From positions 1 to 64,000 of the forward strand of contig NZ_CP099402.1 of the NCBI RefSeq assembly GCF_024721175.1: a DNA stretch of 64,000 bases, in the 5' to 3' direction. Position numbers and translations under genes: made by a program. Below are positions 1 through 59,157 of the stretch, piece by piece (the stretch's first letter is position 1; each line of letters opens with the position of its first letter). The notes under the pieces are model-generated. The model saw only the letters and a list, made by a program, of their open reading frames with translations, had not been told where the DNA came from and did not search any database. This DNA comes from Rhizobium sp. Pop5 (GTDB taxonomy: Bacteria; Pseudomonadota; Alphaproteobacteria; Rhizobiales; Rhizobiaceae).

Positions 1-1209
1 ATGAACGCTAATTCGAACGCCTTGAAGGCCGCGCCGCTGCATTTCGAGGATCAGATTCTTGAGCAGGGCGATGTGATTTCGAAGAAGCTGCATCTCTTGA
101 GCGTGCAGCGCTTTCCACCGAACGCGAAGAAGACGCTGCGCAACTTTTCCCTCGCCGAGGTCGCCAATTATGTCGGGGCGTCGCAGAGCACGCTGAAGAA
201 GCTGCATCTCGAAGGCAAGGGCCCCTGCCCGCAGACTTCGCCTTCCGGCCGGCGTTCCTACAGCGCCGAGCAGATGCTGGAGCTGAGGCGCTATCTCGAT
301 GCGCATGGCCGCTCCGAGAGCCGCATGTATGTTCCCCACCGCCGCGGCCACGAAAAGCTGCAGGTGATCGCCGTCGTCAACTTCAAGGGCGGCTCGGGCA
401 AGACGACGACGGCAGCCCATCTTGCCCAGCACCTGGCGCTGACCGGCCACCGCGTGCTGGCCGTCGATCTCGATCCGCAGGCCTCGCTCTCCTCCCTGCA
501 CGGCTTCCAGCCGGAATTCGACCAGGCCTCGTCGCTCTATGAAGGGATCCGCTACGACGGCGAGAAGAAGCCGCTCTCTCAGATCATCCACAAGACCAAC
601 TTTCCCGGCCTCGATATCGTGCCGGCCAATCTCGACCTGCAGGAATACGAGTACGACACGCCGCTCGCCATGGCCGACAAATCGACCAATGACGGCAAGA
701 CCTTCTTCACCCGCATCTCGCGCGCGCTCGCCGAGGTCGACGCCCGCTACGACGTCGTCGTCATCGATTGCCCGCCGCAGCTTGGCTATCTCACGCTGAC
801 GGCGCTGACGGCGGCGACCAGCGTCTTGATCACCATTCATCCGCAGATGCTCGACGTCATGTCGATGGGCCAGTTCCTGCTGATGCTCGGCGGTATCCTG
901 AAGCCGATCCGCGCCGCCGGCGCAGAAGTGAACCTTTCATGGTACCGCTATCTCATCACCCGCTACGAACCAACAGACGTGCCGCAGGCCCAGATGGTCG
1001 GCTTCATGTCGACCATGTTCCATGAGTTCATGCTGAAGAACCAGATGGTCAAATCGACGGCGATCTCGGATGCCGGCATCACCAAGCAGACACTTTACGA
1101 GGTCGAGCGCGCTTCGCTGAACCGGGGAACCTATGATCGGGCGCTGGAGGCGATGGACGCTGTCAACGCGGAGATCGCCGGCCTTATTCACCAGGCATGG
1201 GGACGATGA
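1..1209 (+). CDS. repA: RepA, ParA-type partition ATPase of a repABC plasmid
   Basis: RepA acts with RepB to segregate the plasmid and, in this family, represses the repABC operon. The 402-residue product has an N-terminal helix-turn-helix region near residues 49-70, a deviant Walker A motif (KGGSGKTT, about 129-136), the second ParA motif with VDLDPQAS near 156, and a Walker B strand (VVVIDCPPQ) near 253. Its length is normal for RepA. repB follows 69 bp downstream on the same strand and then repC, the standard repABC order. The window begins exactly on the start codon, so the operon promoter and operator lie outside it and upstream starts cannot be judged. Confidence 0.97.
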   Translation: MNANSNALKAAPLHFEDQILEQGDVISKKLHLLSVQRFPPNAKKTLRNFSLAEVANYVGASQSTLKKLHLEGKGPCPQTSPSGRRSYSAEQMLELRRYLDAHGRSESRMYVPHRRGHEKLQVIAVVNFKGGSGKTTTAAHLAQHLALTGHRVLAVDLDPQASLSSLHGFQPEFDQASSLYEGIRYDGEKKPLSQIIHKTNFPGLDIVPANLDLQEYEYDTPLAMADKSTNDGKTFFTRISRALAEVDARYDVVVIDCPPQLGYLTLTALTAATSVLITIHPQMLDVMSMGQFLLMLGGILKPIRAAGAEVNLSWYRYLITRYEPTDVPQAQMVGFMSTMFHEFMLKNQMVKSTAISDAGITKQTLYEVERASLNRGTYDRALEAMDAVNAEIAGLIHQAWGR

Positions 1210-1228
1210 ATTTGTCGGCTGACAAATT
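1209..1228. promoter_or_regulatory. Palindrome in the repA-repB gap, possible RepB/parS-type site
   Basis: This 20-bp inverted repeat has 10-base half-sites with one mismatched pair and a central GC. Its core TTGTCnGCnGACAA is the same as that of the two perfect 16-bp palindromes at 33405 and 34121; only the outer bases and one inner pair differ. Some repABC plasmids carry RepB binding sites between repA and repB, so a centromere or autoregulatory role is plausible. It differs from the usual GTT-N4-GC-N4-AAC form at both ends. Confidence 0.5.
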
Positions 1229-1278: not shown

Positions 1279-2253
1279 ATGGCACGAAAGAATCTGCTTG
1301 AAGGGCTGGCCGATATGCCTGATGAAAACGCAGGCACTGCGAATTATCCGATGCGCGGGGCAGGCCGCTCGCTCGTCCGCTCGCTGGATGAGCTCGCCAA
1401 ACAGGCCGAGAAATTCCTGGAGGGCGAGGCGGTCGTCGATCTCGACCCCGATCTCGTCGAAGCCTCCTTCGTCAAGGACCGCCTGTCGGAGGATGACGAG
1501 GATTTCCGGGCGCTGGTGGAAGCGATCCGCGCCCGCGGCCAGGACACGCCGATCCTGGTACGTCCCCACGGCAGAATCGACGGGCGCTATCAGGTCGTCT
1601 TCGGCCACCGGCGCCTGCGCGCCGCCCGCGAGCTCGGCCGCAATGTCAGGGCCGTCGTCAAGACGATGGATGATCGCACCCATGTCATCGCCCAGGGCCA
1701 GGAGAATTCGGCGCGCGCCGACCTCACCTTCATCGAGCGGGCGCTCTTCGCCCGGCGGCTGGAAGAGCTCGGCTACGACAGGGAGGTCATCTCGGTAGCG
1801 CTCGCCGCCAATGCGGCTTCTGTCTCGAAGATGATGTCGGTCATGGAGCGCATCTCGCAAGAGGTCGTCCAGGCGATCGGCGCGGCGCCCGGTGTCGGTC
1901 GCGAGCGCTGGGTGGAACTGTCGCTACTCGCCGGCAAATCGGCCAACGCGGCAAGCGTCGCCAAGGTCCTGCAAGACGACAACTTTCATCAGCTACCTTC
2001 CGACAAACGTTTCGAAGCGCTCTATGCGGCGCTCAACAAAAGCGCGCGGCCGGTCAAGAAAACGGTCGTGGCAAGGAAGGTCAAATGGCAACCGCTTGAT
2101 AAGGCGGTCCAGGCGGAAATGAAGAATGACGGCAAGGCGTTCTCGCTCTCGATGAAGGCGAGGAATGCCGGCCGCTTCGGAGAATTTCTCTCCAGCAGGC
2201 TGGATGCGCTCTATGAGCAATTCCTCGCCGAGGAGGGCAGACGAGGAGACTGA
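1279..2253 (+). CDS. repB: RepB, ParB-type centromere-binding protein
   Basis: RepB binds parS and works with RepA in partition. The 324-residue protein has a ParB nuclease-like domain at roughly residues 50-150, including the conserved GHRRLRAAREL patch near 112, followed by a helix-turn-helix region and a C-terminal dimerisation tail. The ATG at 1279 follows a GGAGG-like site. RepB is the predicted reader of the palindromes at 1209, 33405 and 34121. Length and position are normal for the family. Confidence 0.96.
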   Translation: MARKNLLEGLADMPDENAGTANYPMRGAGRSLVRSLDELAKQAEKFLEGEAVVDLDPDLVEASFVKDRLSEDDEDFRALVEAIRARGQDTPILVRPHGRIDGRYQVVFGHRRLRAARELGRNVRAVVKTMDDRTHVIAQGQENSARADLTFIERALFARRLEELGYDREVISVALAANAASVSKMMSVMERISQEVVQAIGAAPGVGRERWVELSLLAGKSANAASVAKVLQDDNFHQLPSDKRFEALYAALNKSARPVKKTVVARKVKWQPLDKAVQAEMKNDGKAFSLSMKARNAGRFGEFLSSRLDALYEQFLAEEGRRGD

Positions 2254-2386: not shown

Positions 2387-2465
2387 ATAAATGACGCTGC
2401 AGCACCCTCAACCCTCGCATCGTTTCGGTGAGCGGATTTCTTTTGCCTGAATAGAGGTGAAGGAA

Positions 2466-3815
2466 ATGGAGAGTGAATATGTGACGACGCCCTTCGGGCG
2501 GCGGCCGATGACGCTTGCCCTGCTGCTGAAACAGCGGCGTGGCGAAGCGATCGCGGCCGGGACGACGCGCAACAAATGGAAATTGTTCCGATCGGTCTGC
2601 GAGGCCCGGGCAGGGCTCGACGTCACCGACCGGGCGCTGACGGTGCTCGATGCGCTGCTGACATTTTATCCCGAGGACGAACTCTCAAGCGAAAAGCCGC
2701 TGGTCGTCTTTCCCTCGAACGCGCAGCTTTCGCTCAGAGCCCGCGGCATGGCGGCCGCGACGCTGCGCCGGCATCTCGCCGTGCTCGTCGAGGCCGGTCT
2801 CATCTCCCGCAAGGACAGCCCGAACGGCAAGCGTTATGCCCGCCGCGGCCGGGAAGGCGGCATCGACGAGGCCTATGGCTTCAGCCTCGCCCCGCTTCTC
2901 GCCCGCGCAGGCGAGATCGAGACGATGGCAGCGCGGATCACCGCCGACCGGCAGATGCTGCGCGCCATGAAGGAGCGACTGACCATCTGCCGGCGCGACA
3001 TCGCCAAGCTCCTTGCCGCCGCCGTCGAGGAAGGGATTCCCGGCGACTGGGAGCGCGTGTCCTCGATGTTCCAGACGATCCTGCAGCGCATTCCGAGAGC
3101 CGCGACGATCGAAAACCTCACGCCCATCCTCGAAGAGTTCGAGGCAATCCGCGGAGATATCGTCAACCTGTTGGAACTGCATGAGAAAATGCAGATGGCG
3201 AGCACCAGTGAATCCCAGATTGAGCGCCACATACAGAATTCTCACACCGAATCCGCATCTGAATCTGAACCGGGCTTGGAAACGGGGCAGGGGGCGAAGG
3301 CGGCAGGGCAGGCTGACCGGGATCAGCAACCGGGAACGAAGCCGCACAATGACCGGCTGAAAGCGCAAACAAAAGGCGGGGAAGGATCGCGCTTCGACGC
3401 CCGGCCGAGGGCAGGCGAATTGAAATCCCTCCCGCTCGCCACGGTTCTCCAGGCCTGCCCGGACATCGCCGACTACGGCCCGGCCGGCAGGATCGGCACC
3501 TGGCGGGACCTGATGACGGCGGCCATCGTCGTACGCTCGATGCTCGCCGTCAGCCCATCGGCCTATGAGGTGGCGGCAAACGTGATGGGGCCGGAAACCG
3601 CCGCCACCGTCATGGCCTGCATCCTGCAAAGGGGAGGGTGCATCAACTCGGCCGGCGGCTATCTCAGGGACCTGACGCGGCGCGCCGAACGGGGTGAATT
3701 TGCGCTCGGCCCGATGCTGATGGCGCTGTTGCGGGCGAACTCGCCGGGGAGCGTCGTTGCGAGCAGGTCAGCGTCGGGCAAGCGCCTGGAGGGCCTGCTC
3801 GGCGAACCGGGGTGA
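2466..3815 (+). CDS. repC: RepC, replication initiator
   Basis: RepC is the initiator of repABC plasmids; in studied members the origin lies inside its own gene. The 449-residue product opens with the family signature TTPFGRRPMTL and has the expected length. I chose the ATG at 2466 rather than the GTG at 2457, because the GTG falls inside the ribosome binding site GAGGTG, which then sits 6 bases before the ATG. The middle (around residues 240-330) is low-complexity and variable, as usual. The last 48 bases overlap, tail to tail, the end of the PIN toxin gene on the other strand. Confidence 0.95.
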   Translation: MESEYVTTPFGRRPMTLALLLKQRRGEAIAAGTTRNKWKLFRSVCEARAGLDVTDRALTVLDALLTFYPEDELSSEKPLVVFPSNAQLSLRARGMAAATLRRHLAVLVEAGLISRKDSPNGKRYARRGREGGIDEAYGFSLAPLLARAGEIETMAARITADRQMLRAMKERLTICRRDIAKLLAAAVEEGIPGDWERVSSMFQTILQRIPRAATIENLTPILEEFEAIRGDIVNLLELHEKMQMASTSESQIERHIQNSHTESASESEPGLETGQGAKAAGQADRDQQPGTKPHNDRLKAQTKGGEGSRFDARPRAGELKSLPLATVLQACPDIADYGPAGRIGTWRDLMTAAIVVRSMLAVSPSAYEVAANVMGPETAATVMACILQRGGCINSAGGYLRDLTRRAERGEFALGPMLMALLRANSPGSVVASRSASGKRLEGLLGEPG

Positions 3816-21710: not shown

Positions 21711-22040
21711 GAGAGCCTCATCCTTGCTGAGGTGCCTCGCAGGGGCCCGCGCACCTCGGGGTGAGGGTGGATAGGGCGTGCCGTGTGGCACCCCCCTCTG
21801 GCCTGCCGGCCATCTCCCCCACAAGGAGGGAGATCGGCTGGGCGCGATGGCTTCCCCAAACAACTGAGCATTGTGATTGTCGCTGCCGTTTGAAAGGGAG
21901 CGATGGTCCAACCTCCTGCCAATCTCCACCCTTGTGGGGGAGATGGCCGGCAGGCCAGAGGGGGGTTGCCATGCGGCACGCCTGTGAAGGAAGAAGTAAA
22001 GTATCTCGCGCTCAAGAGAGCCTCATCCCAAGGCGGCCCA
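21711..22040. repeat. Mosaic of inverted repeats (RIME-like intergenic element)
   Basis: The gap is made of repeats. Arms at about 21778-21834 and 21922-21980 are inverted copies of each other (only a handful of differences over 55-59 bases), each containing a TCTCCC...GGGAGA hairpin, separated by about 87 bp. A further GAGGTGC...GCACCTC hairpin lies at 21729-21757. The build resembles the Rhizobium-specific intergenic mosaic elements. No gene is present. Confidence 0.75.
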
Positions 22041-31030: not shown

Positions 31031-32107
31031 TCAGCTCACCGTCTCGCCCAATGTGTCGGCGACATAGGCGCCGCGCGCGCCCATCGGCAGCGGAGGCCCG
31101 GTCGTCGTGTCCTTCGCCGTCTGATGCTCCAGCTCGGCATTGAGTTCGGCGCCGACGATGAGAATGACGACGGAGAGCCAGATCCAGACGAGGAAGCCGA
31201 TCAGCGCGCCGAGCGTGCCGTAGGTCGCGTTGTAATTGGCGAAATGATCGAGGTAGAAGGAGAAGCCGACCGACATGACGGCCCAGGCGAATGTGGTCAG
31301 CCCCGCGCCCCACGTCATCCAGCGGACCCTTGCAGGCGCGCGGCTCGGCCCGAAACGATAGACCAGGGTCACAGCCACCGCGACGACGAAGAGAAGCAGC
31401 GGCCACCGCAGGAAAAGCGCCATGTTCTCCTTGAACTGGTCGAGCCAGAGATAGGAGAGCATGACGGGCAGCACGCCGACGAGCGCCACCATGACGACGG
31501 CGAAAACCATCGCGCACAGGGTAAAGCAGAGGCCGATCAGGTTCAGCCTGACGAGGCTGCGCTTCTCCCTCTCCTCATAGGCGACGTTCATCGCGTCGAA
31601 GATCGCCAGCGTGCCGCTATGGGTGCTCCAGAGCGCGATCGCGAGACCGACGAAGAAGGTGATGCCGAGGGTGCTTTCGCGCTTTTCGACGAGCGCCTTG
31701 ATCTGATCGGCAAGAAGATCAAAGGCCCCGGGCGGCAGAAGGATGGCAAGCTCGCGCAGATGTTCTGATATCGTCACCGGATCAGCCACCAGCCCGTAAA
31801 GCGAAACCAAGGCCGCGAGTGCGGGAAACAGCGCCAGCAGCAGATAAAAGGTCACGCCCGCCGCAATCAGCGTCACCCGGTCGTCGAGGATTTCATGGAA
31901 GGCGCGCCAGAACACGTCGCGCAGGCCGGCGAGCGGAATGGCCTCGGGCGTGGCCGCGCTGCGCCCATGTTCGTCGCCCGCCTTGCCGGCAACGACGGTG
32001 GCGAAGGAACCCCGCTGCCTTGCCTGCACCAGGACAAACGCACCGATCGCCGCGGCCACAATTCCAACCGCGACGGAGAACCTCTTGAGGCGGAGCACCT
32101 CTGCCAT
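31031..32107 (-). CDS. YihY/BrkB-family inner membrane protein
   Basis: The 358-residue protein has an N-terminal helix, then the YihY core of about six membrane helices with DRVTLIAAGVTFYLLLALFP, ALWSTHSGTLAIFDAMNVAY and NYNATYGTLGALIGFLVWIWLS, all typical. GGAGG precedes the ATG at 32107; the upstream in-frame extension is rejected. Family members are membrane proteins of unsettled role, once misnamed RNase BN. It stands alone. Confidence 0.87.
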   Translation of the reverse strand: MAEVLRLKRFSVAVGIVAAAIGAFVLVQARQRGSFATVVAGKAGDEHGRSAATPEAIPLAGLRDVFWRAFHEILDDRVTLIAAGVTFYLLLALFPALAALVSLYGLVADPVTISEHLRELAILLPPGAFDLLADQIKALVEKRESTLGITFFVGLAIALWSTHSGTLAIFDAMNVAYEEREKRSLVRLNLIGLCFTLCAMVFAVVMVALVGVLPVMLSYLWLDQFKENMALFLRWPLLLFVVAVAVTLVYRFGPSRAPARVRWMTWGAGLTTFAWAVMSVGFSFYLDHFANYNATYGTLGALIGFLVWIWLSVVILIVGAELNAELEHQTAKDTTTGPPLPMGARGAYVADTLGETVS

Positions 32108-32823
32108 TACCCTATCCTCCGATTTGCTTCGGGGATAACGCTGCGCGCCGCTAAAGGATGCAAGCCGTTGCTTTCCCGCAGAGAATCCCGGCGGGGGAGG
32201 GGACTTCGCTGCCGCCATCAGCGTCGCAGATGAGAATCCCGCGCAATTTTGAAGATTATAAACATCTGATTTTGTTAGATTAGTTTCAGGCTACGGAAGC
32301 GAAACCGGGGTTTGGTTTCGTTACTCCGGCGTGAGGGTCATTCTGGTGCTGTGGCCGATGCGGCGATTTTGTGGGAGCCAAGGCCGAAAATCGGAGCATT
32401 TCGCCGCTTGGAAAGCACGATTTGGCCTGAATTCCGTCCGCCATTCCTAGCCTAATACCTACAAAATACAGCCCGACGAAGTGACACCCGGCCTCATCAA
32501 TAACGCCGGCACCCGAGGCCCGCAATAACCGCGCTCGTTATCCACGGCAAAGATTGATACCGGCCGGACGCACACGATCGCATCCCCATGCACTCGGATC
32601 ACGACGAGTTCGTTGCGGACGACGCGAGCGGGGGCCATAGCGCACCGATCACGGCCCGACAGTCGATGCCATCGGTCGCAGCGATAATTTCTCCGCAAGT
32701 TTGGCAGCTCGCGCGTGGGCTATTCCGTATTAGCGGCCGTCGGCCTTCTGCGCGCCTGAACAATCTGCTCGACATCATTGGCATACTGATCATCAGGAAA
32801 TTTGACGTTCCAGACGAGGCGGT
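32108..32823. other. Gene-poor stretch of about 715 bp
   Basis: No open frame here resembles a known family or has a ribosome binding site. Base composition looks less GC-rich at the start (32225-32290). It marks the beginning of a decayed 4-kb region. Confidence 0.5.
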
Positions 32824-33066: not shown

Positions 33067-33539
33067 ATGACGATCCGATGTTCTGGCCGAAGTCTGCCGA
33101 TTACACTTCGACCTTGGTGAACATGGCCGTCGAAAAGACCCTACGTACCCTTCAACCCGGCAGCAGGTTTGGATAGGTTCCCGAGTCAGACATTAACCTG
33201 CAGACGCTTCTTCCTCAAGGTATGCCTCCCCTCCAGCGCCGGTGGCAGCGACCATGGCCAGCAATGGCCAAACCAAAACGTGGGTAGATCGCTGGTCGCA
33301 CACTTGCTTCCCCTTCTCCCGCTGGAGCGAAGGGGTCCGCGGAAACGTCGGCGCCCCTTCACGGAACATCATCGTCGGACCATCAAGGGGCCGCCAAATC
33401 ATTCGTTGTCCGCGGACAACAGCTTGGCCGAGCGACCTTTGCCGGAGTCTGCAGGATCATACTGGCGCATGCCAATACCGAACCCTCGCCTCAGGAGAAC
33501 CCCCTTGCCAAGAACCCGCCATCCCGGCAATTTCACGAC
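33067..33539. other. Non-coding stretch of about 470 bp holding a parS-like palindrome
   Basis: Nothing gene-like was recognised. Its one clear feature is the perfect 16-bp palindrome at 33405. Confidence 0.5.
33405..33420. promoter_or_regulatory. parS-like 16-bp palindrome, copy 1
   Basis: GTTGTCCGCGGACAAC is a perfect 16-bp palindrome fitting GTT-N4-GC-N4-AAC, which I recall as the consensus for RepB binding (parS) on repABC plasmids. An identical copy lies at 34121. The core also matches the palindrome in the repA-repB gap. Confidence 0.65.
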
Positions 33540-34103
33540 ATGGACCCGGCCGCTCTCGCCTCTCGCATGCGTGATCACTACGTCGCAGAATTTCGCTGTT
33601 TCGTCCAAACACAGGTGGCGATCTGTCCCCAAGGGGTGCCCGAGCTAAAGCTACGCCTCAGTGAAAAGTGCGCGTTGTTCGATCGGCTTTATTGCGTGGA
33701 TTTCATCAGGGGCGGCAGCCCATCGCCGATCGTGGAATTCGCCCCCAAGTACATCTTAATTTTCGATGCCCTCAGGGCCACATTTGGCAACTCACTTCTC
33801 CTCATGAAGCACCTGCGGTGGGACGACGTATTGATCCGGCATGACGTCGATCAGCCGCCTTATGATGATCTCGCCAAATGGTTTCGATCCTGGTTCGATC
33901 CGGAGGATGAACGGCATGATCCCAACGGGGACGTGTCCAAAATGATCCACTCGATGCTGCTTCAGCTAGGCCTCCTCAGTATCGACTTCGGCACGGCCCC
34001 GCCCGATGCTTTTTGGGAAATTCTACAGGTGCTCGAAAACGCGGGAGCGGCGCGGATTGAAATCGGCAGTTCGGAGGCCGAACCAAATCACCTCGTTCAA
34101 TAG
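33540..34103 (+). CDS. Hypothetical protein between two parS-like sites
   Basis: A 187-residue soluble protein that I do not recognise. It is acidic in the middle, with PPYDDLAKWFRSWFDPEDE, and has no signal peptide or membrane helix. Codon pattern and amino-acid mix look natural. No ribosome binding site is evident at 33540; an ATG at 33567 (MRDHYVAEF) is an alternative. The gene is bracketed by two identical palindromes, 119 bp before its start and 17 bp after its stop. Confidence 0.55.
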   Translation: MDPAALASRMRDHYVAEFRCFVQTQVAICPQGVPELKLRLSEKCALFDRLYCVDFIRGGSPSPIVEFAPKYILIFDALRATFGNSLLLMKHLRWDDVLIRHDVDQPPYDDLAKWFRSWFDPEDERHDPNGDVSKMIHSMLLQLGLLSIDFGTAPPDAFWEILQVLENAGAARIEIGSSEAEPNHLVQ

Positions 34104-34120
34104 GCGTCCAATATTCCCCC

Positions 34121-34136
34121 GTTGTCCGCGGACAAC
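34121..34136. promoter_or_regulatory. parS-like 16-bp palindrome, copy 2
   Basis: Identical to the palindrome at 33405 and 716 bp from it. It lies 17 bp after the stop of the hypothetical gene. Two identical perfect 16-mers are very unlikely by chance. Confidence 0.65.
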
Positions 34137-34612: not shown

Positions 34613-35059
34613 ATGGACAGGTTAGCGCAATGCCATTGCGGATCACTCCGCGCGAAGACCTCAGGCGATCCGCTTACGGTGAGCCTGTGCCATTGCCGGG
34701 ACTGCCAGCGCCGAACCGGCGCCGTGGCGAGCAGCGGCGCGATCTTCGCGAAATCCGAGGTGACGCTCGAGGGAGACTGGAAGGTCTTCGAGCGCGACGC
34801 CGCCGAAGGGCGCAAGGTCCGGTTCCGCTTCTGCCCGAATTGCGGGACGTCGCTGTATTGGGAAGGTGATTTCAGCGCGGAGCTCTGCGGCATCGCGGTC
34901 GGCGCCTTCGCGGACCCGACCTTTCCGCCGCCCCTGCTTTCCGTCTACGAACAATCCAGGCATGAGTGGGTGGAGCCGCCCGACGGCGTGGTGCGTGCCC
35001 GGCGCGGATTGGTTTCGTCAGCGGCGGCCGCGGATGATGACAAGCCGAGCGAAACTTGA
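34613..35059 (+). CDS. GFA/CENP-V-family zinc protein
   Basis: The 148-residue protein has the GFA zinc-binding layout: CHCGSL at about 8-13, CHCRDCQRRTGA at about 26-37, and CPNCGTSLYW near 75, seven cysteines in the usual places. Family members include S-(hydroxymethyl)glutathione synthase-like proteins, but most have no proven activity. GAGGTG lies before the ATG. It is convergent with the RES gene. Confidence 0.87.
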   Translation: MDRLAQCHCGSLRAKTSGDPLTVSLCHCRDCQRRTGAVASSGAIFAKSEVTLEGDWKVFERDAAEGRKVRFRFCPNCGTSLYWEGDFSAELCGIAVGAFADPTFPPPLLSVYEQSRHEWVEPPDGVVRARRGLVSSAAAADDDKPSET

Positions 35060-35085
35060 ACGCGCCGGCCCCGAGAGCGCTTTGG

Positions 35086-35652
35086 TTACAGACCCCACTT
35101 CGGGCCGCCCTGCGACAAGGTAATCTCGACCGGATCGCCGTTCACCTCGACGGACGGACCGCCGAGCGCATTCCAGCGAAACAGATTGAGATGCCGGCCG
35201 CCGGGGATCAGTCTCGATCGGTCGATGATGCCATCGGCGCCCGCCGCCCTGGCGAGATCGGCCGTGCGCCATGACGGCGGCTCCTTGCCGACAGCCAGTG
35301 CCGAGCGCCAGGAGAGATTGGAGGCCTCCCGGTCGATACCGAGCTGTTCACACGCCTGCTCATCATGCTGATCGAGCACGAAGGCGTTGTTGACCGCGAG
35401 CGGCACCACCACACGCCGCCGCCCGTCTTCGCGCATATAACCCGAAATCGCCATGATCGCCCATTCGGCCGAAGCACTCATATAGAGGGCAGGCTGACCG
35501 AGCCGGTGATAACGGCCCGCGCTCGTCTCATCCGGAAGATCGAGCACGCGATCGAGGCGCTCGATAGGAACGGACCGAAAGAAGCGCCCGCTCACCTTGC
35601 GGAAGATACTTGATGCTTCGTTTGCTGGCGGTTGTTTTTCCATAGGGGTCAT
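35086..35652 (-). CDS. RES-domain protein (putative NAD-degrading toxin), no partner
   Basis: The 188-residue protein shows the RES pattern: Arg in AGRYHRLGQPALYMSASAEW, then a Glu-bearing PPSWRTADLARAAGADGIID and PGGRHLNLF near the C-terminus. RES toxins of RES-Xre modules degrade NAD. No Xre-type antitoxin gene is next to it on either side, so it is either orphan, silenced or not toxic. Start could be 35652 or 35643; no good ribosome binding site is seen. Confidence 0.7.
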   Translation of the reverse strand: MTPMEKQPPANEASSIFRKVSGRFFRSVPIERLDRVLDLPDETSAGRYHRLGQPALYMSASAEWAIMAISGYMREDGRRRVVVPLAVNNAFVLDQHDEQACEQLGIDREASNLSWRSALAVGKEPPSWRTADLARAAGADGIIDRSRLIPGGRHLNLFRWNALGGPSVEVNGDPVEITLSQGGPKWGL

Positions 35653-57786: not shown

Positions 57787-59157
57787 TCAGCCCTCCCTTG
57801 GCAAGCGGATCACAAAACCCGTGCCAGGCCGCCGATCCTCGATATGAAGTTCGGCCTTCAATTGCTGCACAAGCGCGCGGACGATCTTCATTCCGAGGCT
57901 TTTGCCGTCGTTCTCGGCGGACGACATCTCCGGCGGCAGGCCTTTGCCGCCGTCGGCGACCTCGAGACGGATCTCGTCGCCGATGCTGTGTGCGCTGACG
58001 GTGACGGCGCCTGCGGCATCGGCATAGGCGTGCTTGAAAGCGTTCGTCACCAGCTCGTTGACGAGGAGGGCGATCTGGATGGCGCGGTCGGCATCGACAG
58101 GGCAGGGATCGGCGTCGACCGAGAGGACGTGGCTGGACGTCGTCTGCTGCAGGCGTTGGCAGAGGCTCGACAGGAAATCCGCCAGATCCACCGTCTCGGT
58201 GTGCGGCTGACGCCACAACTGGTCGTGCACCTCCGCAATGGTTCCGACGCGCGCCTCGGCATCGCGAAGCGCCTGTCCGACCTCCTCCTGTTTGGCGGAG
58301 CGGGCCTGCATGGCGAGCATGGCCGCGACCAGCGCCAGGCTGTTCTTGACCCTGTGGCTCATCTCGCGAAGCATGATCTGCTGGTGTTCGTCGGCGAAAT
58401 GACGCGCGGTATCGTCCCGCAGCACCTTGAGATAGCCGGCGCGCTGGGCGCGCAGCGGCATGGTCAATCCGCTGCCCCAGAATGTCGAGCCGTCCTTACG
58501 CAAGTGAAACCGCTCGTTCTCCGCGCGGCCGCGCTCGGCGGCCGCCTTCATCTCATCCTCCAGCGCGCCGTCGCGATCATCGGGAGGCAGGAGAATGCGG
58601 GCATCGCGACCGATGATTTCGTCTTCCTCATAGCCGAAGATGCGGCAGGCGCCGGTGTTCCAGCTGATGATCCGCCCGTCCCGGTCGAAGGCGAAGATCG
58701 CATAGTCGATCGCGCTTTTGAGAATGAGCTGAAGGCGCTCCTGGCTGGCGCGCAGCGCCTCCTCCTCATGCAGCATCCGCGTCCGGTCGCGGACGACCTT
58801 CATCAGGCCGTAGATCTCGCCGGCATTGTTGCGCAGCGGCATCGTCAGCCCAGAGGCCCAGAACGAACCGCCGTCCTTCCTGGCATGCCAGCGATCGTGT
58901 TCGGCGCGCCCGGTCGTGAGCGCAAGCCTGATCTCCTTCAGCGGCGCAGCCGCCAGTTGATCCTCGAACGAAAAGAGGATGGCGCTGTTCTGCCCGATCA
59001 TTTCGAACGCCGAATAGCCGAAGAGCTCTTCCGCGCCGGCGCTCCAGGTTACAATCGTGCCATCGCGATCCATCGCGAAAATGGCATAGTCCCGCGCGCT
59101 CTCGACCATGTGCCGATAGATTTCAGTCTCATCGCCCGGAAGGGGATATTGATCCAT
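57787..59157 (-). CDS. PAS-PAS HisKA_2-type sensor histidine kinase
   Basis: The 456-residue cytoplasmic kinase has two PAS domains (about 10-125 and 135-250; DYAIFAMDRDGTI and DYAIFAFDRDGRI) and a HisKA_2/HATPase region with the phospho-His in MSHRVKNSLALVAA near 263 and the N-box ELVTNAFKHAY near 360. Neither membrane helix nor receiver is attached. Such kinases often feed stress or light signalling through single-domain regulators. It is divergent from the broken Crp gene. Confidence 0.88.
   Translation of the reverse strand: MDQYPLPGDETEIYRHMVESARDYAIFAMDRDGTIVTWSAGAEELFGYSAFEMIGQNSAILFSFEDQLAAAPLKEIRLALTTGRAEHDRWHARKDGGSFWASGLTMPLRNNAGEIYGLMKVVRDRTRMLHEEEALRASQERLQLILKSAIDYAIFAFDRDGRIISWNTGACRIFGYEEDEIIGRDARILLPPDDRDGALEDEMKAAAERGRAENERFHLRKDGSTFWGSGLTMPLRAQRAGYLKVLRDDTARHFADEHQQIMLREMSHRVKNSLALVAAMLAMQARSAKQEEVGQALRDAEARVGTIAEVHDQLWRQPHTETVDLADFLSSLCQRLQQTTSSHVLSVDADPCPVDADRAIQIALLVNELVTNAFKHAYADAAGAVTVSAHSIGDEIRLEVADGGKGLPPEMSSAENDGKSLGMKIVRALVQQLKAELHIEDRRPGTGFVIRLPREG

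Follow-up and report, generated by a model that had tools for sequence, protein, structure and literature searches.

Identical parS-like palindromes on a Rhizobium plasmid: a probable remote centromere of its second repABC operon

An exact 16-bp palindrome, GTTGTCCGCGGACAAC, occurs at 33405..33420 and again, in the same sequence, at 34121..34136 of the DNA analysed here (neither site has a strand). This stretch, the window, comprises the initial 64 kb of contig C5 (951,562 bp), in a genome of five contigs and 6.74 Mb, and it opens with a repABC operon. Among plasmid records with DNA similar to the window, 124 of 148 are from Rhizobium. The initial annotation proposed that the two palindromes are RepB sites serving the window's operon. 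The exact sequence match confirms the repeated palindrome, and the question is then which RepB such a distant pair would serve. Judged from their sequence and distribution, the palindromes are very probably parS sites. We give a probability of about 0.83 to the reading that they form the main centromere (parS) of the second repABC operon of C5, roughly 117 kb away.

The palindrome pair and the two repABC operons

The palindrome has the form given in the initial annotation for RepB sites, fitting both the loose pattern GTTNNNNGCNNNNAAC and the tighter GTTNNCNGCNGNNAAC, which the available text of PMC9040568 quotes as the repABC parS consensus. By form alone, the pair is a weak signal: the loose pattern has two matches in the window against 0.52 expected, and two or more matches arise in 6 of 100 shuffles. 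Its significance lies in identity and conservation, because a search of the replicon and its relatives found the copies at 33405 and 34121 to be the sole exact ones in the 6.74-Mb genome, and the exact 16-mer to be present in 80 of 148 Rhizobium genomes (own included). Positive genomes hold one to three copies, except for G122 with six, on a single contig in each genome, and a reversed-pattern control gave 0 matches in every genome listed.

The window's own operon, which is not the likely partner, comprises repA1 (1..1209, plus strand; Pfam AAA_31 and CbiA), repB1 (1279..2253, plus strand; Pfam RepB and ParB_N) and repC1 (2457..3815, plus strand; Pfam RP-C). Between repA and repB lies the palindrome TTTGTCGGCTGACAAA (1211..1226, no strand), the probable parS of RepB1; TTGTCNGCNGACAA occurs no more than 80 bp upstream of repB1 in all 30 loci read, which are the best 30 of 58 matches. 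The core of the distant pair had been likened to this palindrome. The two do have TTGTC-N4-GACAA in common, but they differ at 4 of 16 positions. The common core makes cross-binding between RepB1 and RepB2 possible.

Contig C5 carries a second repABC operon at about 150 kb, outside the window, with repB2 at C5:150743-151741 and a repC2 domain (PF03428) at C5:150028-150549, both on the minus strand. Its RepB was first noticed in a looser RepB search of 14 genomes. RepB2 shares 40% identity with RepB1, and 89-90% with the RepB proteins of G001:C7, G011:C2 and G038:C2.

Other contigs of the same genome have palindromes of their own. GTTGGCCGCGGCCAAC, at C3:1214 and C3:401908, is the likely parS of another plasmid and lies mostly at that contig's repABC. 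On C4, TTGTCAGCTGACAA-core palindromes at 2218, 12058 and 503361 are likewise likely parS sites, with the 12-kb copy outside repABC and the others mostly at it.

Operon sites and remote sites among RepB2 relatives

RepB2 has matches in 82 of the 148 genomes at E ≤ 1e-110, which fall into three ARRANGEMENTS by RepB2 identity: clade B at 87-100% (50 genomes), clade C at 72-77% (24) and clade D at 61-68% (8). For clades C and D, with 32 genomes together, 28 operon loci were read, and the exact 16-mer stands inside repB in 24 of them. Two more, G060 and G125, have a copy with one mismatch at that place, and G113 and G128 have two exact copies upstream of repA; in G042, G062, G142 and G143, whose loci are not among the 28 read, the 16-mer falls inside repB by its coordinates. 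Many clade-C loci also carry symmetric variants upstream of repA, for example GTAGTCCGCGGACTAC, which would fit a dyad-binding site.

Clade B keeps a one-mismatch copy, GTTGTCCGCGGACGAC, inside repB2 in all 39 genomes read. None of its 14 operon loci read, which cover 6.3-8.0 kb upstream of repB2, has a further site within two mismatches. Synonymous-codon use shows that the copy inside repB2 is under constraint as DNA. Across 75 repB2 genes (67 genomes), six of the 226 conserved degenerate codon columns have one codon throughout, and the site itself, codons 248-252, accounts for five of them. A maximum-likelihood tree was built from 42 RepB2 sequences and 4 outgroup proteins; in it, the 14 clade-B members lie on one side of a branch supported at 100/99 and the relatives beyond it are of the operon type; the outgroup branches are very long. 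The simplest reading of this distribution would be one shift of the site, from the operon to a remote position.

The exact copies of clade B cluster beside an ar14 gene, away from the operon, in 50 of 50 genomes. In the window, the ar14 small RNA (RF02344; 34251..34370, plus strand; Rfam score 69.8 bits against a gathering score of 58.8), which we take to be an NfeR1-type sRNA, starts 130 bp after the start of site 2, the site being upstream. It is the constant neighbour of the cluster: blastn finds an ar14-matching block in all 50 remote loci, and an Rfam scan found ar14 in each of the four other remote loci scanned. A site with at most two mismatches lies 110-170 bp upstream of ar14 in 47 of the 50 loci, and this near-constant spacing may reflect a regulatory role. 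Additional sites lie up to 3.2 kb away at variable spacing, and 49 of the 50 loci hold 2-4 sites within two mismatches. In these loci, 114 sites have at most one mismatch, and outside the 16 bp they hold almost no information in common. The usual neighbour on the other side is a BrkB/YihY family gene (31031..32218, minus strand; PF03631), with DNA matches in 46 of 50 remote loci, one of them merely partial. The ar14 of the window has CCTCCTCCC loops.

The segment 33405-34136 has a GC content of 57.0%, against 62.8% for the window, and contains an ORF of 187 amino acids with no Pfam match (33540..34103, plus strand). This ORF belongs to a real family, with 105 proteins at E ≤ 0.001 that include sequences from Neorhizobium and Novosphingobium, the first match probably being the plasmid's own record. 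By tblastn, it is present in 7 of the 50 equivalent loci, own included, and the bracketing is therefore accidental; we judge the ORF incidental and rule it out as part of the system. The surrounding 4-kb stretch, earlier called otherwise gene-poor, is not empty: it holds this ORF, the ar14 sRNA, and GFA and RES-domain genes recognised by Pfam (34613-35652). The RES-domain protein is encoded at 35086-35652 (PF08808); RES domains occur in toxins of RES-Xre pairs.

Distances were measured in the 21 near-complete clade-B genomes (at most nine contigs), with contigs taken as circles. The cluster lies 112-428 kb from repB2 in these genomes, with a median of 283 kb, and our own plasmid has both its parS-like copies more than 10 kb from the operon, at 117 kb from repB2. 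In 27 of the 50 clade-B genomes, among them all 21 near-complete ones, the cluster is on the same contig as repB2; in 30 of 30 clade-C/D genomes with an exact site, that site is on the contig of repB2 too. Cluster and repB2 lie on different contigs in the other 23 clade-B genomes, all drafts of at least 30 contigs, so that linkage on one plasmid is seen in the remaining 27 of 50. Seven contigs, from G001, G011, G028, G033, G034, G037 and G038, carry the RepC of repABC2 as their sole PF03428 RepC, with the cluster 175-404 kb from repB2; the scope of this count of initiators is the PF03428 RepC type only.

Partner and role of the remote palindromes

The exact 16-mer is present in 80 of the 82 genomes with RepB2 and in none of the 66 without it; these genomes are related, and a Fisher test of the co-occurrence, which ignores kinship, overstates the evidence. 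The two RepB2 genomes that lack an exact copy are G060 and G125, with their one-mismatch site in repB2. We also considered whether the 16-mer always stays on the contig of RepB2 where the contigs of RepB1 and RepB2 differ. It does so in clade C (5 of 5, where the site is inside repB2 anyway), and the rule fails in clade B: among 16 drafts with split RepB contigs, the 16-mer is on the contig of RepB1 in 8 and on a third contig in the other 8, which is what a single plasmid broken into contigs would give.

If the palindromes were instead parS of the window's RepB1, they would form an additional centromere, some 31 kb from its operon, and the 16-mer should be present with RepB1 and absent without it. 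RepB1 has matches in 58 of the 148 genomes at E ≤ 1e-90. The 16-mer does occur in all 35 genomes whose RepB1 is at least 86% identical, and the core common with the palindrome upstream of repB1 is also in favour of this pairing, as is the position of the cluster in the 14 near-complete genomes with RepB1 on the same contig, where it lies 21-38 kb from repB1 and thus nearer to it than to repB2. All 35 genomes also have RepB2, however, so co-occurrence cannot separate the two proteins there. Outside this set, the 16-mer is absent from all 16 genomes that have a RepB1 relative and no RepB2 (in these, RepB1 is merely 49-76% identical), it is present in 38 genomes without RepB1, and seven near-complete clade-B plasmids keep the pair with no RepB1 on the contig. 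On this co-occurrence across 148 genomes we reject RepB1, which is almost certainly not the partner, and with it the earlier assignment of the palindromes to the window's operon; only a slim chance is left for that pairing.

Two further explanations change the role of the sites. They could be mainly operators of ar14 expression, bound by RepB2 or another regulator, and not a centromere. The presence of ar14 beside the cluster in every clade-B locus, with a site at near-constant distance upstream, speaks for this. The more distant sites of variable spacing do not fit it, and around the operon 16-mers of clades C and D, in all 8 loci scanned, nothing nearby reaches the ar14 gathering score. We regard an exclusive operator role as improbable, slightly more so than the RepB1 pairing; an operator role would in any case be compatible with that of a centromere. 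The least probable of the alternatives is that the sites are fossils, a former parS whose work is now done by the operon copy or by the other repABC. The plasmid does have two repABC operons, and the repB2 copy is conserved one base off in every clade-B genome read. In all 50 clade-B genomes one or more exact copies persist despite diverging flanks, and almost every locus has several near-exact sites, as would hardly be expected of a relic; the 15 of 50 clade-B genomes without RepB1 (E ≤ 1e-90) keep an exact copy too.

The reading that we prefer, a centromere of the second repABC, agrees with three of the traits of a repABC parS: the palindromes have the GTTNNCNGCNGNNAAC form, go with a particular RepB type and lie on the same replicon as repABC2 (here C5). 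The idea of a remote centromere cluster is thereby kept, as parS-like sites remote from the operon that they serve, with the correction that this operon is not the window's. By analogy with the Paracoccus plasmid pAMI4, described below, RepB2 dimers would load on the two exact sites and spread onto flanking DNA, and RepA2 would then move the RepB2-loaded sites so that plasmid copies separate. The one-mismatch copy inside repB2 would probably be a weaker site, kept for regulation or autoregulation of the operon. Ancestrally, exact sites may have lain at the operon, inside repB and upstream of repA; the p42f lineage would have lost the exact operon copies, with the cluster forming beside the ar14 gene, and centromere and origin would thus have come apart.

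Named plasmids and what the arrangement would mean

Replicons of the repABC type are the usual model of an operon that unites replication and partition genes and has its parS close by. Here a whole lineage, with p42f and pRltTA1D among its plasmids, seems to have its exact parS sites more than 100 kb from the operon. We consider it an even call whether a working centromere has here been lastingly uncoupled from repABC, over 112-428 kb, and fixed beside the ar14 promoter, in seven genomes with no second PF03428 RepC on the contig. If this is true, segregation would wait for the replication fork to reach the centromere, or replication would start near the remote locus and not at repC; RepB2 loading could also tune the ar14 sRNA. 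The arrangement offers a way to test if a bacterial centromere has to be close to the origin. For plasmids of the RepB2 (p42f) type, the palindrome cluster is the likely centromere, and on a plasmid with two repABC operons a parS need not belong to the operon closest to it.

In R. etli CFN42, p42f has the pair at 21,978 and 22,690 and the one-mismatch copy at 225,068. Within the available text of the sources, p42f is reported to have two repABC operons (PMC2783167), and its replication genes are described as closely related to those of pRL12, with incompatibility cited as in preparation (PMC2434198). Plasmid pRltTA1D of R. leguminosarum TA1, also of the RepB2 type, carries the pair at 174,807 and 175,887; its one-mismatch copy, at 1,941, lies inside the annotated repB. 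On another plasmid of TA1, pRleTA1b, a parS within the repB coding sequence is reported to cause incompatibility, according to the accessible part of PMC4492784; the likeness is a centromere site inside repB.

The S. meliloti 2011 replicon pSymB has the same 16-mer and the same RepB type (55% identical to RepB2), but its single exact copy, at 58,913, is at the operon, 1.37 kb upstream of repB, and not hundreds of kilobases off. If repA has its usual length, the site is just upstream of repA (the record is unannotated there). Clades C and D likewise combine the same 16-mer and RepB type (61-77%) with a position at the operon. Two copies of GTTGACAGCTGTCAAC, which is the parS sequence of pAMI4, lie downstream of repB of pSymB (L243:8900 and 9945), probably beyond repC.

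The closest likeness in print is the 3parS locus of Paracoccus aminophilus pAMI4, which is bound by RepB, causes incompatibility and on deletion gives a stability defect (PMC9040568). As described in the portion of that paper available, it is a non-coding 2-kb locus 11.5 kb downstream of repC, with three copies identical to the operon copy, GTTGACAGCTGTCAAC, and with no close relatives that have it. Both systems thus combine several parS copies clustered away from repABC with a further copy inside the operon. They differ in that the predicted sites described here lie 112-428 kb from repB2, with an operon copy one base off, in 50 genomes and next to ar14.

On chromosome 2 of Allorhizobium vitis, the same source describes two parS repeats in an AT-richer region 30-90 kb downstream of repC, judged to have been translocated from upstream of repA (PMC9040568). 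A remote parS pair and a one-mismatch copy elsewhere are common to both cases. Compared by description, A. vitis has no parS in the operon and its degenerate copy is 15-20 kb off, whereas here that copy is inside repB2. In Agrobacterium tumefaciens chromosome 2, RepB ChIP-seq maps to a parS cluster near the origin, as summarised in the text available of PMC9239152.

With the clusters of pAMI4 (11.5 kb) and A. vitis (30-90 kb) in print, the present one is a more distant case of a known arrangement; on the sequence comparisons, it would go beyond them in its greater distance, its 50 genomes and its adjacent sRNA gene. The open-access literature searched contained no earlier report of a remote cluster in the p42f lineage, and the names etli, leguminosarum, pRL12 and p42 do not occur in the main text of PMC9040568; Koper et al. 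2016, whose subject is RepB-parS specificity in TA1, may be relevant.

Relevant to a possible start of replication near the cluster, the minimum of cumulative GC skew in sampled pieces falls about 0-70 kb from the cluster in three of three plasmids (G001:C7, G038:C2 and G000:C5) and far from repABC in G001 and G038; none is strongly significant, the skew range being reached in 162, 914 and 974 of 5000 shuffles for the three plasmids. A search for rearrangement scars compared the ORFs of the 28 clade-C/D operon loci with the 50 remote loci. Near repABC2 of G078 there are GNAT and RtcB genes similar to ones at some remote loci, with RtcB in 1 of 25 genomes. A brkB gene was found in 6 of 17 genomes searched, among them none of 10 in clade C and 4 of 5 in clade D, and in three of the clade-D genomes it is on the contig of repB2, about 31, 46 and 234 kb away. 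As a scar linking the remote locus to the old upstream region of repA, the brkB, GNAT and RtcB genes are suggestive only.

The 790,983-bp contig G122:C3 carries repB2 and three parS sites twice, at equal spacing and near both ends (6854 and 775270), perhaps as the untrimmed overlap of a circular assembly.
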